Below, in pieces: positions 1,731 through 57,981 of a stretch of 64,000 nucleotides of DNA. Source of the DNA: a virus; the IMG/VR virus record IMGVR_UViG_3300032242_000738, positions 20,220 through 84,219 of that record; one strand, given 5' to 3'. Positions within the stretch are counted from its first letter, which is position 1, and each line of letters starts with the position of its first letter. Made by a program: the position numbers and the translations under genes. Below the pieces are notes generated by a model that ran no database searches, was not told where the DNA came from, and was given only the letters and a program-made list of their open reading frames with translations.

Positions 1731-1759
1731 TTGTATTGTGTTATATAATATATTATAAT
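1731..1759 (+). promoter_or_regulatory. Sigma-70 promoter of the exonuclease gene
   Basis: The -35 TTGTAT is at 1731-1736, the spacer is exactly 17 nt, and TATAAT is at 1754-1759. The expected transcript start falls at or next to the ATG at 1766, which predicts a leaderless mRNA. Confidence 0.7.
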
Positions 1760-4655: not shown

Positions 4656-4711
4656 ACTTGCATTCGGCAAGTTTATGCAGTAACCCACTGCGTAGCGTCT
4701 AGAACACGCTA
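4656..4711 (+). promoter_or_regulatory. Two consecutive perfect hairpins in a late 5' leader
   Basis: Hairpin 1: ACTTGC (4656-4661), ATTCG loop, GCAAGT (4667-4672). Hairpin 2: TAGCGT (4693-4698), 7-nt loop, ACGCTA (4706-4711). They lie between the late box and the Shine-Dalgarno AAAGGA and leave it free, so they are more likely mRNA-stabilising elements than blockers. That function is inferred. Confidence 0.5.
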
Positions 4712-4731
4712 ATTTTATAAAGGAAAATCAA

Positions 4732-6126
4732 ATGGGACGTCCTCTAAAAATCGCAAAGGCTCAAGCAGTCTTAACAATTACTGATACAGCACAAACAGGC
4801 AGTATCGTTACAATATCAGGTGGTAATCTAACAACTAACCCAACTGTTGGTGTAGCAGAAGGTATGAAATTTGTAGTTGCAACTACAGTTGGTGGTTTAG
4901 TTGCTGGCACAACATATTATGTTAATGTAGTATTATCAAATACTACATTTAGTGTTTCAGCTACACAAAAAAGTGTACAACCGCAAGTTATGGCACCGAT
5001 GACAGATACCACTGGTCAATCTGTTAGTGCAACATTTAATGGTGTTGATTCATATTTTAACAATCCAGTATCTGGTACAGGTTATCCAGCAACAAATACA
5101 GCAACATACGGTGTAGTTGGTGGAAATACTGCTATCTACGGTAAGCAAGTATTATGTAATGTAGCATTTGGTGTTCAGGGTACAGGTACTGTATTCGCAA
5201 GCACAAGTAGCAACAATGTAGTTGGTCTTGGTACTGACTTTGCTAACGTAGCTACAGGTTCAATATTATTTGCTCAATGGGGTAATGACCCAAATGTAGC
5301 AATGTTATTAGGTACTACAACTAGTACTAAGGGTAATTTGAGTGTAGTTGTTGCTAACACAACAGTATCAGGTAGTATCATTGGTACTTCTGGAAATGCA
5401 CAAACATTGACAGTAAATACTCCAGTAGTGTTTGATTCTACATTTGGTAGTTTGACAGCAGGTACAACATACTTTGTTAAGACTATTGCTAATGCAGCCG
5501 CATTTACTGTTTCTACTACACCTGGTGGTGCAGTAAAAACATTGACAGCAAATGCTAGTGTTACTGGTAACGCAATTCAGAACCGTGTTGTATTAGGTGC
5601 TGTATCAGCAAATAACGCAACTGGTGCTACTAGTTATGGTGATCCATTCGTTCAAGCATTACCAGAAGCAGGTTATATTGTTCGTCAAAAAGGCAAAACA
5701 AAGTATTTGGTAACAGGTACAGTTACAGGTTTGACAGGTGCAGTATATACAGCTAATGTTGCTAACACAGCATTAACACCAAACACAATGAGTATTATTG
5801 CTACTAATGCAGCCTCTGGTACACAATATGTTTCAAGTGTAAATGACTATCAAACAGAATTGTTCCCAACAACAGTTGCCCCAGGAGCATTAAGTGTAGG
5901 TACATTGTATACAATTTATCAATCAGGAACAACAGATTGGACAGCATGTGGTGCAGCAAGTAACTTAACAGGTGTTACATTTACTGCTACTGCTACAGGT
6001 AGTGGTACAGGTCTTGCAGTATTGAATACAGTTAATCCTGATGTGATTTCTTCATTCAATGCGGCTGCCGCAGCTAATGCTAACCCAGGTCAGCCTAACC
6101 CAATCGTAACTATTGCTAATGCTTAA
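4732..6126 (+). CDS. Beta-rich virion protein with shared carbohydrate-type modules
   Basis: 464 aa, Thr, Val, Ala and Gly-rich with very few charges. Two copies of a module (VAGTTYYVNVVLSNTTFSVS and TAGTTYFVKTIANAAAFTVS) also occur in the proteins at 35830 and 38244. Near residues 385-425 is another widespread phage-tail motif (GTLYTIY, GTTDWTACGA, GVTFTATATGSGTG). The N-terminus MGRPLKIAKAQAV is basic and could be the anchor. It has its own late promoter, a structured leader and a strong AAAGGAAAA binding site, so it is probably abundant. Likely a fibre, whisker or capsid-decoration protein; exact location unknown. Confidence 0.6.
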   Translation: MGRPLKIAKAQAVLTITDTAQTGSIVTISGGNLTTNPTVGVAEGMKFVVATTVGGLVAGTTYYVNVVLSNTTFSVSATQKSVQPQVMAPMTDTTGQSVSATFNGVDSYFNNPVSGTGYPATNTATYGVVGGNTAIYGKQVLCNVAFGVQGTGTVFASTSSNNVVGLGTDFANVATGSILFAQWGNDPNVAMLLGTTTSTKGNLSVVVANTTVSGSIIGTSGNAQTLTVNTPVVFDSTFGSLTAGTTYFVKTIANAAAFTVSTTPGGAVKTLTANASVTGNAIQNRVVLGAVSANNATGATSYGDPFVQALPEAGYIVRQKGKTKYLVTGTVTGLTGAVYTANVANTALTPNTMSIIATNAASGTQYVSSVNDYQTELFPTTVAPGALSVGTLYTIYQSGTTDWTACGAASNLTGVTFTATATGSGTGLAVLNTVNPDVISSFNAAAAANANPGQPNPIVTIANA

Positions 6127-6440: not shown

Positions 6441-6466
6441 AAAAACGGTCTTAGGACCGTTTTTTC
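6440..6466 (+). terminator. Bidirectional terminator between convergent genes
   Basis: AAAAAACGGTC, TTA, GGACCGTTTTTT: a near-perfect palindrome with A and T runs on both sides, able to stop transcripts from both directions. The TTA in the loop is the TAA stop codon of the minus-strand Nudix gene, so that gene ends inside its own terminator. Confidence 0.9.
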
Positions 6467-6867
6467 GTAAGTGCTTTTAATTTCTTCTGTACAACATCAA
6501 AGTTTACTGTACTAAATAACCCAGGATGTAATGGTTTAGGATATTGATTGTCCCCTACCCAAGCATACCCGCAATGTTCATAGTTTAATAACGGGATAAA
6601 TTCTTCATCTATTGCACAAAAGAATGTATGATATGTAAATGTGTTATTGACAAATTTTTGTATTGGAACTAGTTTTGGATTTTTAGGAAAGTATCCAATT
6701 TCTTCATTACATTCTCTAGCGATACCAACTAATAATGTCTCGCCGTTTTCTATTTTACCACCTGGTATACCCCAGTTACCCGGATTTTTATTGTCCGTTC
6801 TAAGTAGGTATAAGAATCGTTGTGTTTTTTTAGCGTAAAAGAATACGCCTGCGGATATATTTGACAT
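6451..6867 (-). CDS. Nudix hydrolase
   Basis: 138 aa. The complete Nudix box G-x5-E-x7-R-E-U-x-E-E-x-G lies at residues 37-58 (G37, E43, R51, E52, E55, E56, G58), followed by the usual beta-rich remainder. Such enzymes hydrolyse nucleoside diphosphates linked to another group; T4 carries NudE, and phage copies may clean nucleotide pools, cleave ADP-ribose or dinucleoside polyphosphates, or decap RNA. The substrate cannot be told from sequence. It has its own early promoter overlapping the end of the gp15 gene, with an extended -10 close to the ATG and no clear Shine-Dalgarno. Confidence 0.92.
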   Translation of the reverse strand: MSNISAGVFFYAKKTQRFLYLLRTDNKNPGNWGIPGGKIENGETLLVGIARECNEEIGYFPKNPKLVPIQKFVNNTFTYHTFFCAIDEEFIPLLNYEHCGYAWVGDNQYPKPLHPGLFSTVNFDVVQKKLKALTKKRS

Positions 6868-6877
6868 ATGCTAATAT

Positions 6878-6906
6878 ATTATAGCATAAAGTAAATCAGA
6901 TTACAA
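6878..6906 (-). promoter_or_regulatory. Minus-strand sigma-70 promoter for the Nudix gene
   Basis: On the minus strand: TTGTAA (6906-6901), 17 nt, then TATAAT (6883-6878), preceded by TGC as an extended -10. The -35 lies in the last codons of the gp15 gene. The -10 ends 10 nt before the ATG. Confidence 0.65.
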
Positions 6907-8272: not shown

Positions 8273-9991
8273 TTAAATTACCGGTGGTATTGAATTTGGT
8301 GATAATGTTAAGATAGTTGACAGACCTTGTTTCTGAGGTATAGTTGTTCCATCTGTAGTTATTGTCACATTGCTGTTATTTATGAAGCTAGATTGTTGTG
8401 ACAAATCTCCTTCAGTGAATCCTGTTTGTGTTCTTACATTCTTAGATATACGAACCCATATTCTACCGTCCCAGCGATAGAGAATTTGTGGTAGATAATC
8501 TGTACGTAAGAAATATGCACCTACTTGTGGGTTTTGCGGGAAACTTATTCCTGCACCAGTTGGGAATCCATTTGGCGCTTCGCCTGTACCATCTAAGTAT
8601 CCTGTGGTATATCCAAAGCTTCTTGGGCTACTACGTGCAATGAATTGGAATCTTGGATCACAATCAGCACGATAGTCCATAGTATCTGGACCATATGGTT
8701 GTGTACCTGTAAAGCCCGGAGCTACTGGATTTTGATCTGCAGTGGCATATGTATTATCTGCTGTACCATATGGACCAGTGACCGGACCTGTCGGCAATGC
8801 CGTTAATACTATTTCTCCTTGTACAGGACCAGATCCATTACCTATAAGTGTTGGTGCAATTGTTGTTGTTTCTAAGTTTACTTGCCTACTATTTTGTAAT
8901 GGCTCAATAAACATATCTATTGTCATGTCCCAAATACTTTGTACAGTTGATTTTGGAATACGTAATACTGGACTTGGGTTTTTATATTTAGGGTTATGAA
9001 CCATTGCAACAGAGGCTCTGGCTACAACCGGTGCACCATTATTATTGGCTATAACATTTACTGGTGGTGCAGGTTGATTATATTTACCTGATAGTTCAGT
9101 ATTAGTTTCAAATGTACCATAAGTAGGAACAATATATAATTTACTCTTATCATAACCTGATTTAGGTACTAATCTATTAGCTTCTTCAATAATAGAATTA
9201 TTGATTTGTAGATTTTTATTATATGTAGCAAGAATATCTTTAAGATTTTGATTAGGATCAAGTTCCCAGAAAGTATCATTAGGTGGTATAATACCAATTG
9301 GTACATCCTGTTTAGCTAGATAATTCTTATCACCATATGTAATAACATAACCAGCTGGATATGTTTTATTAGCTTCCCATAATCCAAGATAATTATCTGT
9401 GTTAATTGGTTGTTCTAATATCTGACTAAATTCTTGGCTATCAACTAATGGTTCACATTTAATACGCCATAAATGCGGATACCAAGTTGGGCTAAATCCT
9501 TCACTTGCAAAATTACCATCAGTAATTTGATAAAATCTTTTTAATGCAACTGGTATAGTTTCTTTTAATGGATTATAATCTAGTAGATGAGGTAATTCTA
9601 ATACATCACCTACCATTAACTTACGACCAACTAAATCAATCATATCATTATAATGAACGGTAATAAAGATAATGTCATTGTTTAAGAATAATCCAAATTG
9701 ACTTAAATCAAAATCTAAATTCTGTACATTATAATGTCCACGTAATCTATAAATACTGGTATCATATGTTCTATCTCTATTTTCTAAAAACAATAAATCT
9801 TGTATATTAGTAGGATCTAACGCATCATATTGTGGTTGAGTATAATCAATACTAGGACCTTGATTAGTTGGTCCTAAATATTTGTGTATATATAAATCAG
9901 TTGCGCCAACAGTAAACATCTCTGATATTGTTCTATCAAAGAAACGATAATCATTTGATTTCGTGGGGTGATATAATGAGAGTCTAGGCAT
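8273..9991 (-). CDS. 14: Neck protein, gp14-like, with long extension
   Basis: 572 aa against 256 in T4. The first 190 residues carry the gp14 pattern: FFDRTISEMFTVGATDLYIHK, then QFGLFLNNDIIFITV, LMVGDVLELP and FYQITDGNFASEGFSPTWYPHLWRIKCEPL, corresponding to the T4 segments around FGMQVQDEVTLSIN and GDLIYFP. The rest is Pro, Thr and Asn-rich beta sequence with no recognised domain, possibly whisker or fibre contacts. gp14 forms the neck that seals the filled head. It is transcribed with gp15 from a late box just upstream. Confidence 0.75.
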   Translation of the reverse strand: MPRLSLYHPTKSNDYRFFDRTISEMFTVGATDLYIHKYLGPTNQGPSIDYTQPQYDALDPTNIQDLLFLENRDRTYDTSIYRLRGHYNVQNLDFDLSQFGLFLNNDIIFITVHYNDMIDLVGRKLMVGDVLELPHLLDYNPLKETIPVALKRFYQITDGNFASEGFSPTWYPHLWRIKCEPLVDSQEFSQILEQPINTDNYLGLWEANKTYPAGYVITYGDKNYLAKQDVPIGIIPPNDTFWELDPNQNLKDILATYNKNLQINNSIIEEANRLVPKSGYDKSKLYIVPTYGTFETNTELSGKYNQPAPPVNVIANNNGAPVVARASVAMVHNPKYKNPSPVLRIPKSTVQSIWDMTIDMFIEPLQNSRQVNLETTTIAPTLIGNGSGPVQGEIVLTALPTGPVTGPYGTADNTYATADQNPVAPGFTGTQPYGPDTMDYRADCDPRFQFIARSSPRSFGYTTGYLDGTGEAPNGFPTGAGISFPQNPQVGAYFLRTDYLPQILYRWDGRIWVRISKNVRTQTGFTEGDLSQQSSFINNSNVTITTDGTTIPQKQGLSTILTLSPNSIPPVI

Positions 9992-9997
9992 ATCTAT

Positions 9998-10005
9998 TAT
10001 TTATC
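9998..10005 (-). promoter_or_regulatory. Minus-strand late promoter box GATAAATA
   Basis: Reads GATAAATA on the minus strand, 6 nt upstream of the ATG of the gp14 gene (ending at 9991). No Shine-Dalgarno is visible in that gap, so the late message is probably leaderless. It shows that the motif works on whichever strand the structural gene lies. Confidence 0.7.
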
Positions 10006-10054: not shown

Positions 10055-10083
10055 TTGACAATAAACTAAACATATGCTATAAT
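10055..10083 (+). promoter_or_regulatory. Consensus sigma-70 early promoter
   Basis: TTGACA at 10055-10060, 17-nt spacer, TATAAT at 10078-10083 with TGC in front as an extended -10: a full consensus match and the strongest promoter seen in the window. It drives the operon 10116-12336. Confidence 0.9.
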
Positions 10084-10115
10084 ACACAAATGAAGTACAA
10101 TTCTAGGAGAAACTA

Positions 10116-11309
10116 ATGGCAACACGTAAACCCATAAAGAAAATCATTAAAGCTAGTGATTATTCACAGGTTAAGACACTTAACCCTAAAGACCCGGATA
10201 CAGAATATTTAGGTCCTGAACCTATGTTTGCCGTACAGCCCGATGCAGATAGACGCCGAGTAGCACTTATGCGTAGTTTTACTTGGTATGGACGTTTTTA
10301 TGGTAAGAAAGATGCTAAAGAATTCTTAGCACAATACTTAGACCTACGTGACCGCCCACAAGAAGCTAAAATCATGCGTAAGATTGATGAGAAAGAATGT
10401 ATCAATACACTATGCTGGTTAGCACGTATGGAATTGCGTGGATTAGAACTGTCCGAAACAGAATCAGATACACTACAAAACGAAATTGTACGATTGCTTG
10501 AAACTATTAATAAGCCACAAGTAGTTGAAGCTTCAATTACCGGTGCACCTGAAGTTCCCACAAGACCTAATATTCAGGAAATTCTTAAAGATAAAGCACG
10601 TGAAGCCGGTGGTGAACTTGAAGGACTGTTTGATGAATATATTACATCAGGCGCCGGAACAAAACATACATTACGTCCAATTGACGAAGTGGCTAAAAAG
10701 AATGTAATGCCACAACATATCAGTATGTTGACCGAAGTATGGAAAAAGAAATTGAATGAGATTGAAGAGGTACTGAAAGGTACGGATAGTCAATTGGTTC
10801 AGGGATATCAGCATCTATCCAAAACACAACTAAAGAATGTTGTAAAGTTTATTGAATTGGTCATCAATGATTTAAACAGTTATATTAGTGTTAAGAAAGC
10901 GGCAAAAGCACCACGTGCCCGAAAAGCTGTTCCTGTAGAGAAACAGGTGGCAAAATTGAAATATCTGAAAACATTTGTAGATACTGCAAATAAGCTTGAT
11001 TTAGTAAGTGTCAGTCCTATCAAACTACATGGTGCAAGTGAAGCTTGGGTATATGATACCGCAAAGCGTAAACTACATCATTATGTTGCAGATGAATATA
11101 GCAAAACATTTACTGTTAAAGGTAGCACATTGTTAGGTTTTGATACTGCACAAAGTGAAACTAAGACATTGAGAAAGCCGAGTGAACAGATTAAAGAAGT
11201 TATGGGTAGCAAGCCGGCTGCACGTAAATTCTACAAAGATATTAAAGCAGTTAGCACAACACCTAATGGTCGCTTTAATGAGAATATGATTATACTGAAA
11301 GCATTTTAA
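10116..11309 (+). CDS. Conserved T4-like early protein of unknown function
   Basis: 397 aa with a good AGGAG binding site and the consensus early promoter in front. The N-terminus is basic (ATRKPIKKIIKASDY). Residues about 45-140 (WYGRFYGKKDAKEFLAQYL, then a helical Glu-rich part) and 200-290 look helical, and residues 300-397 look mixed and basic. No Walker, nuclease or zinc motif is visible. From memory, similar proteins are conserved but uncharacterised in T4-like phages of marine bacteria. Its place at the head of a strongly promoted operon with MazG-like and MutH-like genes suggests a role in early nucleic-acid metabolism; this is inference. Confidence 0.6.
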   Translation: MATRKPIKKIIKASDYSQVKTLNPKDPDTEYLGPEPMFAVQPDADRRRVALMRSFTWYGRFYGKKDAKEFLAQYLDLRDRPQEAKIMRKIDEKECINTLCWLARMELRGLELSETESDTLQNEIVRLLETINKPQVVEASITGAPEVPTRPNIQEILKDKAREAGGELEGLFDEYITSGAGTKHTLRPIDEVAKKNVMPQHISMLTEVWKKKLNEIEEVLKGTDSQLVQGYQHLSKTQLKNVVKFIELVINDLNSYISVKKAAKAPRARKAVPVEKQVAKLKYLKTFVDTANKLDLVSVSPIKLHGASEAWVYDTAKRKLHHYVADEYSKTFTVKGSTLLGFDTAQSETKTLRKPSEQIKEVMGSKPAARKFYKDIKAVSTTPNGRFNENMIILKAF

Positions 11310-12337: not shown

Positions 12338-12379
12338 CATATATGTTTCCTGATAAATATAAGTTAGGAAACATATATG
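12338..12379 (+). promoter_or_regulatory. Perfect hairpin enclosing a late promoter and hiding SD and AUG
   Basis: CATATATGTTTCCT (12338-12351) pairs perfectly with AGGAAACATATATG (12366-12379). The 14-nt loop begins with GATAAATA. The right arm holds both the AGGA binding site and the ATG of the gene at 12377. Read-through RNA from the early operon would be locked; late RNA starting about 12365-12367 would lack the left arm and be open. This is the arrangement known for T4 gene e. Confidence 0.8.
12352..12359 (+). promoter_or_regulatory. Late promoter box GATAAATA inside a hairpin loop
   Basis: Exact motif 17 nt before the start codon of the repeat adhesin. It shares the stretch GTTTCCTGATAAATA with the promoter at 13374. 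Confidence 0.8.
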
Positions 12380-20120: not shown

Positions 20121-20128
20121 GATAAATA
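20121..20128 (+). promoter_or_regulatory. Late promoter box GATAAATA of the tube gene
   Basis: Exact motif 20 nt before the ATG at 20148, with ACAGGAGAA as Shine-Dalgarno. Confidence 0.8.
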
Positions 20129-20147
20129 TTAATAACAGGAGAAAAAA

Positions 20148-22360: not shown

Positions 22361-22798
22361 ATGGCTAAGTTTGCTCAAGGTACATTTGTCCCCAAAAATA
22401 CTCAAAAATATGTAGGTAAACATACCCCAAGATATCGTAGTGGATGGGAACTAACATTTATGATGTTCCTGGATTCTAATTCAAACATAATTCAATGGGC
22501 AAGTGAATCTATTAGAATTCCATATAGAAATCCCTTAACCGGAAAAGCTAGCATATATGTCCCGGATTTTTTAGTTTTATATGAAAATAAGTATAAGAAG
22601 CAAATAGCTGAACTTGTTGAAATCAAACCAAAAAAACAATCACTAATTGAAAGTAAAACAGCTAGTGCTAGAGACCAAGCTATTGTAGCAGTTAATCACG
22701 CTAAATGGGCATCCGCACGTGCATGGTGTTCTCAGAACGGTTTAACTTTTAGAGTAATTAATGAAAATGATCTTTTCTATAATGGGCGAAGCAAGTAA
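22361..22798 (+). CDS. 4: Head completion protein, gp4-like, with PD-(D/E)XK core
   Basis: 145 aa. The pattern F-x-P-K-N-x-x-K-Y-x-G, YRSGWELTFMMFLD, WASESIRIPYRNPLTGK, YVPDFLV and ELVEIKPKKQ is that of T4 gp4 (gene 50/65 product), needed to finish packaged heads. PDF and E-I-K are the D and E-x-K of a TnsA-like nuclease fold, so it may trim the packaged DNA end. It begins 2 nt after the upstream stop. Family assignment is confident; nuclease activity is inferred from the motif. Confidence 0.85.
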   Translation: MAKFAQGTFVPKNTQKYVGKHTPRYRSGWELTFMMFLDSNSNIIQWASESIRIPYRNPLTGKASIYVPDFLVLYENKYKKQIAELVEIKPKKQSLIESKTASARDQAIVAVNHAKWASARAWCSQNGLTFRVINENDLFYNGRSK

Positions 22799-22805
22799 CT
22801 AAATA
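22798..22805 (+). promoter_or_regulatory. Degenerate late box ACTAAATA directly before the small terminase gene
   Basis: The TAAATA core ends 5 nt before the ATG at 22811. No Shine-Dalgarno lies in between, so a late transcript from here would be leaderless. Confidence 0.5.
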
Positions 22806-39663: not shown

Positions 39664-39671
39664 GATAAATA
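39664..39671 (+). promoter_or_regulatory. Late promoter box GATAAATA abutting a start codon
   Basis: Exact motif ending 5 nt before the ATG at 39677, with no Shine-Dalgarno in between: predicted leaderless late mRNA. Confidence 0.7.
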
Positions 39672-39676
39672 TTTGA

Positions 39677-39910
39677 ATGGAACATCCCTTCATCTCATCA
39701 CTATCGGATAAGACATTAGAAGAACTACAAACTTCTATTTCTGAACTAACCAAAAAACTTAACTTTGCATATCGTATGCAGAATGGAGCAATGATCCATC
39801 AATTAAATATGGTAATAGAAAGTTACCGAAAAGAATACGGTCGCAAAATGGATGAGTTACTCAAAAAGCAAGGTGACCGTACACAAATTAACATTCAAAA
39901 AGAAAGCTAA
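39677..39910 (+). CDS. Small conserved helical protein
   Basis: 77 aa, all helical: LSDKTLEELQTSISELTKKLNFAYRMQNGAMIHQLNMVIESYRKEYGRKMDELLKK is an amphipathic coiled coil, with a polar tail. Similar small proteins occur in T4-like cyanophages as I recall, without known role. The GATAAATA box lies immediately in front of the ATG and no ribosome binding site is visible. It may be an assembly or scaffold adaptor. Confidence 0.6.
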   Translation: MEHPFISSLSDKTLEELQTSISELTKKLNFAYRMQNGAMIHQLNMVIESYRKEYGRKMDELLKKQGDRTQINIQKES

Positions 39911-40528: not shown

Positions 40529-40557
40529 TTGTATTACAATACCATTTGTGATATAAT
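40529..40557 (+). promoter_or_regulatory. Sigma-70 promoter of the replication operon
   Basis: TTGTAT (40529-40534), 17 nt, TATAAT (40552-40557). The ATG at 40564 is 6 nt past the -10, so the transcript should start at the start codon. Confidence 0.75.
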
Positions 40558-46272: not shown

Positions 46273-46280
46273 GATAAATA
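46273..46280 (+). promoter_or_regulatory. Late promoter box GATAAATA abutting a start codon
   Basis: Exact motif ending 5 nt before the ATG at 46286; no Shine-Dalgarno between. Confidence 0.7.
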
Positions 46281-48109: not shown

Positions 48110-48138
48110 TTGACTTAACACACTAACTGTGTTATATT
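48110..48138 (+). promoter_or_regulatory. Sigma-70 promoter of the J-domain/ClpA operon
   Basis: TTGACT (48110-48115), 17 nt, TATATT (48133-48138). The ATG at 48146 lies 7 nt past the -10, so the mRNA should begin at the start codon. Confidence 0.65.
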
Positions 48139-55474: not shown

Positions 55475-55482
55475 TATAAATA
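55475..55482 (+). promoter_or_regulatory. Late promoter box with the exact T4 consensus TATAAATA
   Basis: TATAAATA followed by AATAC; the only copy here with the canonical first base. It ends 8 nt before the ATG at 55491, without Shine-Dalgarno. Confidence 0.7.
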
Positions 55483-55490
55483 AATACAAG

Positions 55491-56273: not shown

Positions 56274-56281
56274 CATAAATA
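56274..56281 (+). promoter_or_regulatory. Late-like box CATAAATA abutting a start codon
   Basis: Ends 4 nt before the ATG at 56286; first base off consensus; no Shine-Dalgarno. Confidence 0.5.
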
Positions 56282-57973: not shown

Positions 57974-57981
57974 GATAAATA
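57974..57981 (+). promoter_or_regulatory. Late promoter box GATAAATA abutting a start codon
   Basis: Exact motif, 4 nt before the ATG at 57986; no Shine-Dalgarno; predicted leaderless late mRNA. Confidence 0.75.

Follow-up and report, generated by a model that had tools for sequence, protein, structure and literature searches.

Leaderless mRNAs are known in bacteria, for example for lambda cI and in mycobacteria, and recognition of a 5'-terminal AUG is known for lambda cI. In T4, the late promoter box spans positions -13 to -6 (excerpt of PMC1524935), and at gene e the mRNA that reads through from upstream hides the ribosome site, which the mRNA from the gene's own promoter does not (excerpt of PMC3014915). 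For the jumbo phage AR9, measured leaders range from 26 to 491 nt, and its authors note that transcripts of phages frequently lack a leader (PMC5312081). Our searches of the open-access PMC literature turned up no recognisable description of the clade treated here, nor any of late genes without leaders in T4-like phages. Judging from promoter anatomy, we propose that a large minority of the promoter-proximal genes of this clade give leaderless mRNAs from two initiation systems, and that the rest would be short-leadered, usually with a Shine–Dalgarno (SD) sequence; we put the probability of this reading at about 0.82.

The window, that is, the whole 64,000-base stretch of DNA analysed, comes from a large freshwater phage, covers bases 20220–84219 of an 84,219-base IMG/VR virus record, has a GC fraction of 0.36 and encodes T4-like proteins (sheath, tail tube, clamp loader, Clp ATPase). 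One viral-contig scan gave 80 related loci, with clamp loader identities of 72–96%; one of these loci is contained in a 348,701-base record, G001. We compared five contigs of the clade, namely the window's own contig and the uncultivated relatives G001, G002, G003 and G004, in which 89, 384, 255, 242 and 246 genes were scored, respectively. The nearest cultured relatives found form the PA5oct group (50% identity in the clamp loader, 42% in the sheath and 40% in the Clp ATPase). Genes were called piecewise, mostly in 20-kb stretches, with our own caller, which uses a hexamer score and picks starts without upstream signals; genes with less than 60 nt of upstream sequence were excluded. Coverage ended 4 kb short of the end of G004 and 5 kb short of the end of the comparison phage KVP40, and took in the first 400 kb of Atu_ph07, to 90 kb short of its end. 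The late box searched was the T4-type NATAAATA or ATAAATA; the sigma-70 class combines a TTGACA-like with a TATAAT-like hexamer at a spacing of about 17 bp, the search for its members demanding TTG and at least three matches to TTGACA, and the pair counted against shuffles was TTG, 17 bp and TATAAT. "Early" and "late" are used here as labels of promoter sequence, not of timing. Two adjoining pieces of G001 (L100, L101) hold 24 tRNA genes, and the window holds none.

The original prediction listed eleven promoter boxes standing 4–10 nt from a start codon without an SD, and all eleven are present where it placed them, with gaps of 4–8 nt for the late type and 6–10 nt for the sigma-70 type; an SD 4-mer at -16 to -4 occurs at 0 of the 11. 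The late box GATAAATA at 39664..39671 (+) lies 5 nt before ATG 39677 of a 77-aa ORF (39677..39910, +), which is predicted to be leaderless, has no PHROG match and has a start that aligns in 72 of 73 orthologues. The same octamer GATAAATA is found at 9998..10005 (-), 6 nt before the virion structural gene 8273–9991(-), whose geometry is alike in G001, G002 and G003; at 46273..46280 (+), 5 nt before ATG 46286 of another virion structural gene; and at 57974..57981 (+), 4 nt before ATG 57986, where the G001 gene L105:11921-12835(-) has gataaatactctATGGACTTAAAA. A non-canonical, late-like box, ACTAAATA, at 22798..22805 (+) stands 5 nt before ATG 22811, and the G001 gene of the same length (161 aa, L107:1140-1625; matched by length, not by alignment) has AATAAATA 4 nt before its ATG. 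Two overlapping late boxes, TATAAATA and AATAAATA, at 55475..55486 (+) end 8 and 4 nt before ATG 55491 of a metallophosphoesterase-like gene, and the box CATAAATA at 56274..56281 (+) ends 4 nt before ATG 56286 (ATGATG) of a homing-endonuclease-like gene.

Each of the four listed sigma-70 sites carries a TTG -35 element, with a spacing of 17 bp. TTGTAT-17-TATAAT at 1731..1759 (+) lies 6 nt before ATG 1766 of an exonuclease gene, whose orthologues in G002, G003 and G004 have sigma-70 boxes at similar spacing (the called start in G001 is unaligned). TTGTAA-17-TATAAT at 6878..6906 (-) precedes the Nudix hydrolase gene 6451–6867(-) by 10 nt, which predicts a leader of about 4 nt, and G001 and G002 are similar. 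TTGTAT-17-TATAAT at 40529..40557 (+) ends 6 nt before ATG 40564 of a 168-aa protein with a "DNA polymerase" PHROG, and TTGACT-17-TATATT at 48110..48138 (+) ends 7 nt before ATG 48146. An in-frame stop lies at most 48 nt upstream in nine of the eleven genes (all except 46286 and 55491). Because the next in-frame start lacks an SD-like 4-mer before it at all 11 genes, a later start codon is unlikely to be used; for 6867(-), 40564, 48146 and 55491 that start lies more than 200 nt downstream, and for 6867(-) it is past the gene end. Elsewhere in the window, at 10055–10118, a sigma-70 promoter has its TATAAT 6 nt ahead of a short ORF (ATGAAGTACAATTCTAGGAGAAACTAA), and the stop codon of this ORF overlaps the start of gene 10116 at its ATG; the short ORF is a possible leaderless leader peptide. 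An Rfam freshwater-2 RNA (RF02980, 67.9 bits) at 4656–4734 ends at the start of gene 4732.

In DNA of this GC content, a few ATAAATA–ATG pairs are expected at random, and 19 of the 47 such pairs in the window's own contig and G001 lie away from called starts, so that chance or a gene-calling artefact could be held to produce the short gaps. As the original prediction had suggested, box-to-AUG distances were counted against a shuffled control, here 100 dinucleotide shuffles per contig, and short gaps were in excess in five of five clade contigs. Late boxes 4–6 nt before the start numbered 5/89 in the window's own contig, 23/384 in G001, 15/255 in G002, 8/242 in G003 and 7/246 in G004, whereas the shuffles predicted 0.23, 1.02, 0.48, 0.40 and 0.38, respectively; sigma-70 pairs 5–7 nt before the start numbered 5, 9, 7, 6 and 5, against 0.05–0.18 expected. 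The short spacing thus occurs in both promoter classes, as had been claimed, and is above shuffles in each. For the window's own contig, the largest shuffle counts were 2 for late boxes (5 observed) and 1 for sigma-70 pairs (5 observed, 0.05 expected). A binomial test on late-box positions alone gave a weaker p=0.009 there and 9e-12 in the 348-kb relative. Overall, the relatives show the pattern more strongly than the window does.

The excess does not depend on gene calls. On both strands of G001 and G002, an ATG stands 4 nt after ATAAATA 20 times and 5 nt after it 29 times, compared with about 5 times at other distances, and GTG and TTG show no peak 4–5 nt after ATAAATA in the same gene-call-free count. 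De novo k-mer counting over 1152 non-identical starts, with no promoter model, recovered SD words 4–8 nt before the start, ATAAATA ending 4–5 nt and then again 17–21 nt before it, TTGACA ending at 29 nt and TATAAT at 6 nt; with the ATG's A counted as +1, these last two hexamers thus fall at -35 and -10. When the 1610 genes were grouped into 161 families, late boxes ended 4 nt before the start in 5 families, 5 nt in 3 and 6 nt in 4, at each distance of 7–16 nt in at most one family, and at 17–22 nt in 3–7 families. The reverse complement of the late box gave a flat distance profile over the 161 families; a mirror control is useless for ATAAATA because it reads identically backwards. Since T4, Munch and Atu_ph07, whose GC content is similar, show none of these cases, and since the peak is limited to ATG and the geometry is kept in orthologues, we consider chance or miscalled genes hardly tenable. 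AT-richness is refuted for the clade by the shuffles, the comparison phages and the conservation, which bear out the claim that the spacing is unlikely to be accidental, although single sites may still be chance.

Late-box distances are bimodal: the box lies either 4–6 nt before the start without an SD, or about 17–27 nt before it, usually with one. Over the five contigs, the leaderless class comprises 65 late and 41 sigma-70 genes and the leadered class 105 late and 41 sigma-70 genes, counted as individual genes uncorrected for relatedness (family-level counts are given separately); 964 genes have neither arrangement. Since leadered genes with an SD outnumber the leaderless ones, the phrase "general strategy" in the original prediction is too strong and should be reworded as "one of two common strategies." The start codon is ATG in 65/65 late and 39/41 sigma-70 genes of the leaderless class. 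An SD 4-mer is present in 3% (late) and 0% (sigma-70) of that class, in 66% and 83% of the leadered genes and in 45% of the rest; its scarcity in the leaderless class follows in part from the box itself, which takes up the place of an SD. A TATAAATA-like late octamer lies upstream of tail tube, head-tail adaptor and virion structural genes. As a contrasting, leadered late gene, the tail tube gene of the window has its upstream region at 20121..20147 (+), with the box ending 19 nt before ATG 20148 and an AGGAG. The second codon is GCN in 4/106 leaderless genes versus 47/146 leadered ones (2/50 versus 19/74 families), a bias suggesting that the leadered genes may be the highly expressed ones. 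A T at -1 was considered as an initiator sign; it precedes 77% of late leaderless and 58% of leadered late ATGs and is near background in the sigma-70 class, and it was not used.

The spacing is also maintained over evolutionary distance. Orthologues were counted by upstream sequences distinct in their last 30 nt with an aligned start, 13 orthologues of 40564 being left out since their start is unaligned. By this count, the short spacing is kept in 38/45 upstreams of 46286, 40/47 of 40564 and 35/43 of 48146, at protein identities down to 57%, 55% and 44%, respectively, and in the orthologous upstreams inspected, the box and its distance to the ATG persist while the flanks change. The nominal site, 39677, is the least conserved of the four window genes tested: 17 of 46 distinct upstreams have a late box at 4–6 nt and the other 29 have no late box. 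Several of its orthologues instead start directly after the upstream stop codon, so that coupling to the upstream gene may serve there. Of 52 promoter-linked families found in at least two of the five contigs, 20 are always leaderless, 26 always leadered and 6 mixed.

The 39677 orthologues that keep their start without a box would fit another view, in which the AT-rich box is a translation signal, an A/U-rich enhancer within a longer leader, and transcription starts farther upstream. Read-through would be possible for the 40 of 65 late leaderless genes that have a co-directional upstream neighbour. This view, however, does not explain the -35/-10 spacing, the sigma-70 class keeping its TTG at 17 bp in 37/41 genes, and the same octamer also stands about 17–27 nt upstream of SD-bearing leadered genes, like T4 late promoters; we regard it as improbable. 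Back-to-back late boxes in divergent pairs, leaderless on both sides, leave almost no space for a leader, as only 21 bp (G001 L100:1226-2395) and 27 bp (G002 L213:11749-12975) separate the start codons. Judged from the sequences by eye, one gene is clearly common to these two pairs.

From the anatomy, its statistics and its conservation, we infer both the transcription start and translation from a 5'-terminal AUG. Two systems would operate: sigma-70, with TATAAT mostly 6 nt before the AUG, and a T4-type late system, with NATAAATA mostly 4–5 nt before it. RNA polymerase would initiate on the A of the AUG or no more than a few bases from it and so produce a leaderless mRNA, and such mRNAs would be read through 5'-terminal AUG recognition. 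A gp55-like late sigma factor (phrog_234, about 1e-22) is encoded in G001, G002 and G004; it was not seen in records G000, G003, G005, G006 and G008, which are possibly fragments. With the T4 box at -13 to -6, a 5-nt gap makes the A of the ATG +1, and a 4-nt gap, as in 25/65 late leaderless genes, puts it at -1 in strict T4 geometry, so that a start one base early would be needed. Gaps of 8–10 nt, in 8/41 sigma-70 leaderless-class genes, predict leaders of about 2–4 nt. The geometry agrees with the claim that transcripts begin on the AUG or a few bases from it; an exact coincidence of +1 with the A would not be predicted by it at these 4-nt late and 8–10-nt sigma-70 gaps. Ultra-short leaders of 1–5 nt or mixed starts, SD-less without being strictly leaderless, would accommodate the gaps of 6–10 nt seen in both classes, such as the 10 nt of 6867(-); the modal gaps of 4–5 nt (late) and 6 nt (sigma-70) instead fit a +1 at or beside the A, and we think this alternative rather unlikely. 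"Leaderless" is well supported as the best reading of the promoter anatomy.

We offer tentatively, at somewhat less than even odds, the idea that such an arrangement makes the translation of a gene depend on transcription from its own promoter. In an mRNA that reads through from upstream, the AUG would be internal, lack an SD and go untranslated, and the mRNA from the own promoter would be translated. Some leadered late genes seem to reach the same end through a hairpin of the T4 gene e type. Pairing of the SD/AUG region with DNA lying upstream of the start site, at a helix score of at least 20, was found in 10/105 leadered late genes (0.6 expected); no such excess appeared in leadered sigma-70 genes (1/41, 0.5 expected) or in 300 other genes sampled (3, 2.6 expected). 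In the leadered late gene starting at ATG 12377, a 16-bp inverted repeat at 12338..12379 (+) encloses the late box 12352–12359, and its right arm covers the SD and ATG. This matches the layout described, in the excerpted source, for the hairpins of T4 genes e, soc, 49 and I-TevI, which sequester the ribosome-binding site and have the late promoter inside (PMC3014915). Unlike these T4 genes, the leaderless genes of the clade need no hairpin, and the parallel would be one of purpose. Inverted repeats flanking a promoter box and including the SD/ATG, gene e-like, were seen at 12338–12379, upstream of 60225 and upstream of 15429, where CTCCTGTA...TACAGGAG surround a TATAAT-like box. A broader proposal, that leaderless starts are a translation lock insulating genes from read-through and that a phage-encoded bS21 may further bias ribosomes to 5'-AUG mRNAs in some members, we consider doubtful. 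The 20 of 65 late leaderless genes with a divergent neighbour count against a lock, as their arrangement cannot be explained by read-through from that neighbour.

On the ribosome side, a bS21 gene is present in 4 of 10 records (G001, G003, G006, G009), and no IF3 domain or IF3-like gene was found in 8 records; both findings were counted against the leaderless explanation. Connecting bS21 with leaderless mRNAs is guesswork. Phages with bS21 described in PMC9723584 are predicted to infect Bacteroidetes, and the main text of that article, as excerpted, does not use the word leaderless. In G001, the bS21 gene (L111:1453-1671, -) adjoins a ClpX-like gene, named from its sequence by eye. Against genome contigs, the G001 bS21 gave only four weak matches, labelled Chthonomonas or Armatimonadetes, with 38–44% identity over a short part, which are uninformative as to the host. 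G001 also has a permuted tmRNA (L092:18344-18717, -; RF01850 beta_tmRNA, 91 bits; tag ANDSQFALAA), and this match points to the betaproteobacteria as host or as source of the gene. A resemblance of the bS21 C-terminus is no more than a lead.

With tens of genes predicted to be leaderless under two sigma factors, this clade would be a natural test bed for leaderless translation and would show promoter placement serving to control translation. Gene finders tuned to an SD may misplace such starts.

Compared with bacterial leaderless mRNAs, the clade has in common the AUG start, the lack of an SD and a predicted 5'-terminal AUG; it differs in being a T4-like jumbo phage clade that uses two promoter classes. 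T4 gp55-dependent late promoters (TATAAATA) are alike in the octamer core, in the gp55-like sigma of G001, G002 and G004 and in the distance seen at leadered genes. However, the short spacing is missing from five of the seven comparison phages: late boxes 4–6 nt and sigma-70 pairs 5–7 nt before the start number 0 and 0 in T4 (255 genes), Syn9 (185), KVP40 (359), Munch (511) and Atu_ph07 (612), which have only the longer late-box distance group. Thus, ATAAATA at 4–6 nt precedes 0/255, 0/359 and 0/185 starts in T4, KVP40 and Syn9, and in the clade it is one of two modes. The PA5oct group shares a gp55-like sigma with the clade and differs in lacking leaderless enrichment, PA5oct (352 genes) having 2 late cases against 1.5 expected and 1 sigma-70 case. 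The Pelagibacter phage HTVC008M (192 genes) shares the late short spacing, with six late cases, all at a gap of 5 nt (L173-L180); of these, the tape measure, DNA end protector and baseplate wedge genes were looked up, and all three starts agree with the deposited annotation. Unlike the clade, it has no clear sigma-70 leaderless class (one case). The short promoter spacing so appears to mark the clade and is paralleled in part by one pelagiphage.
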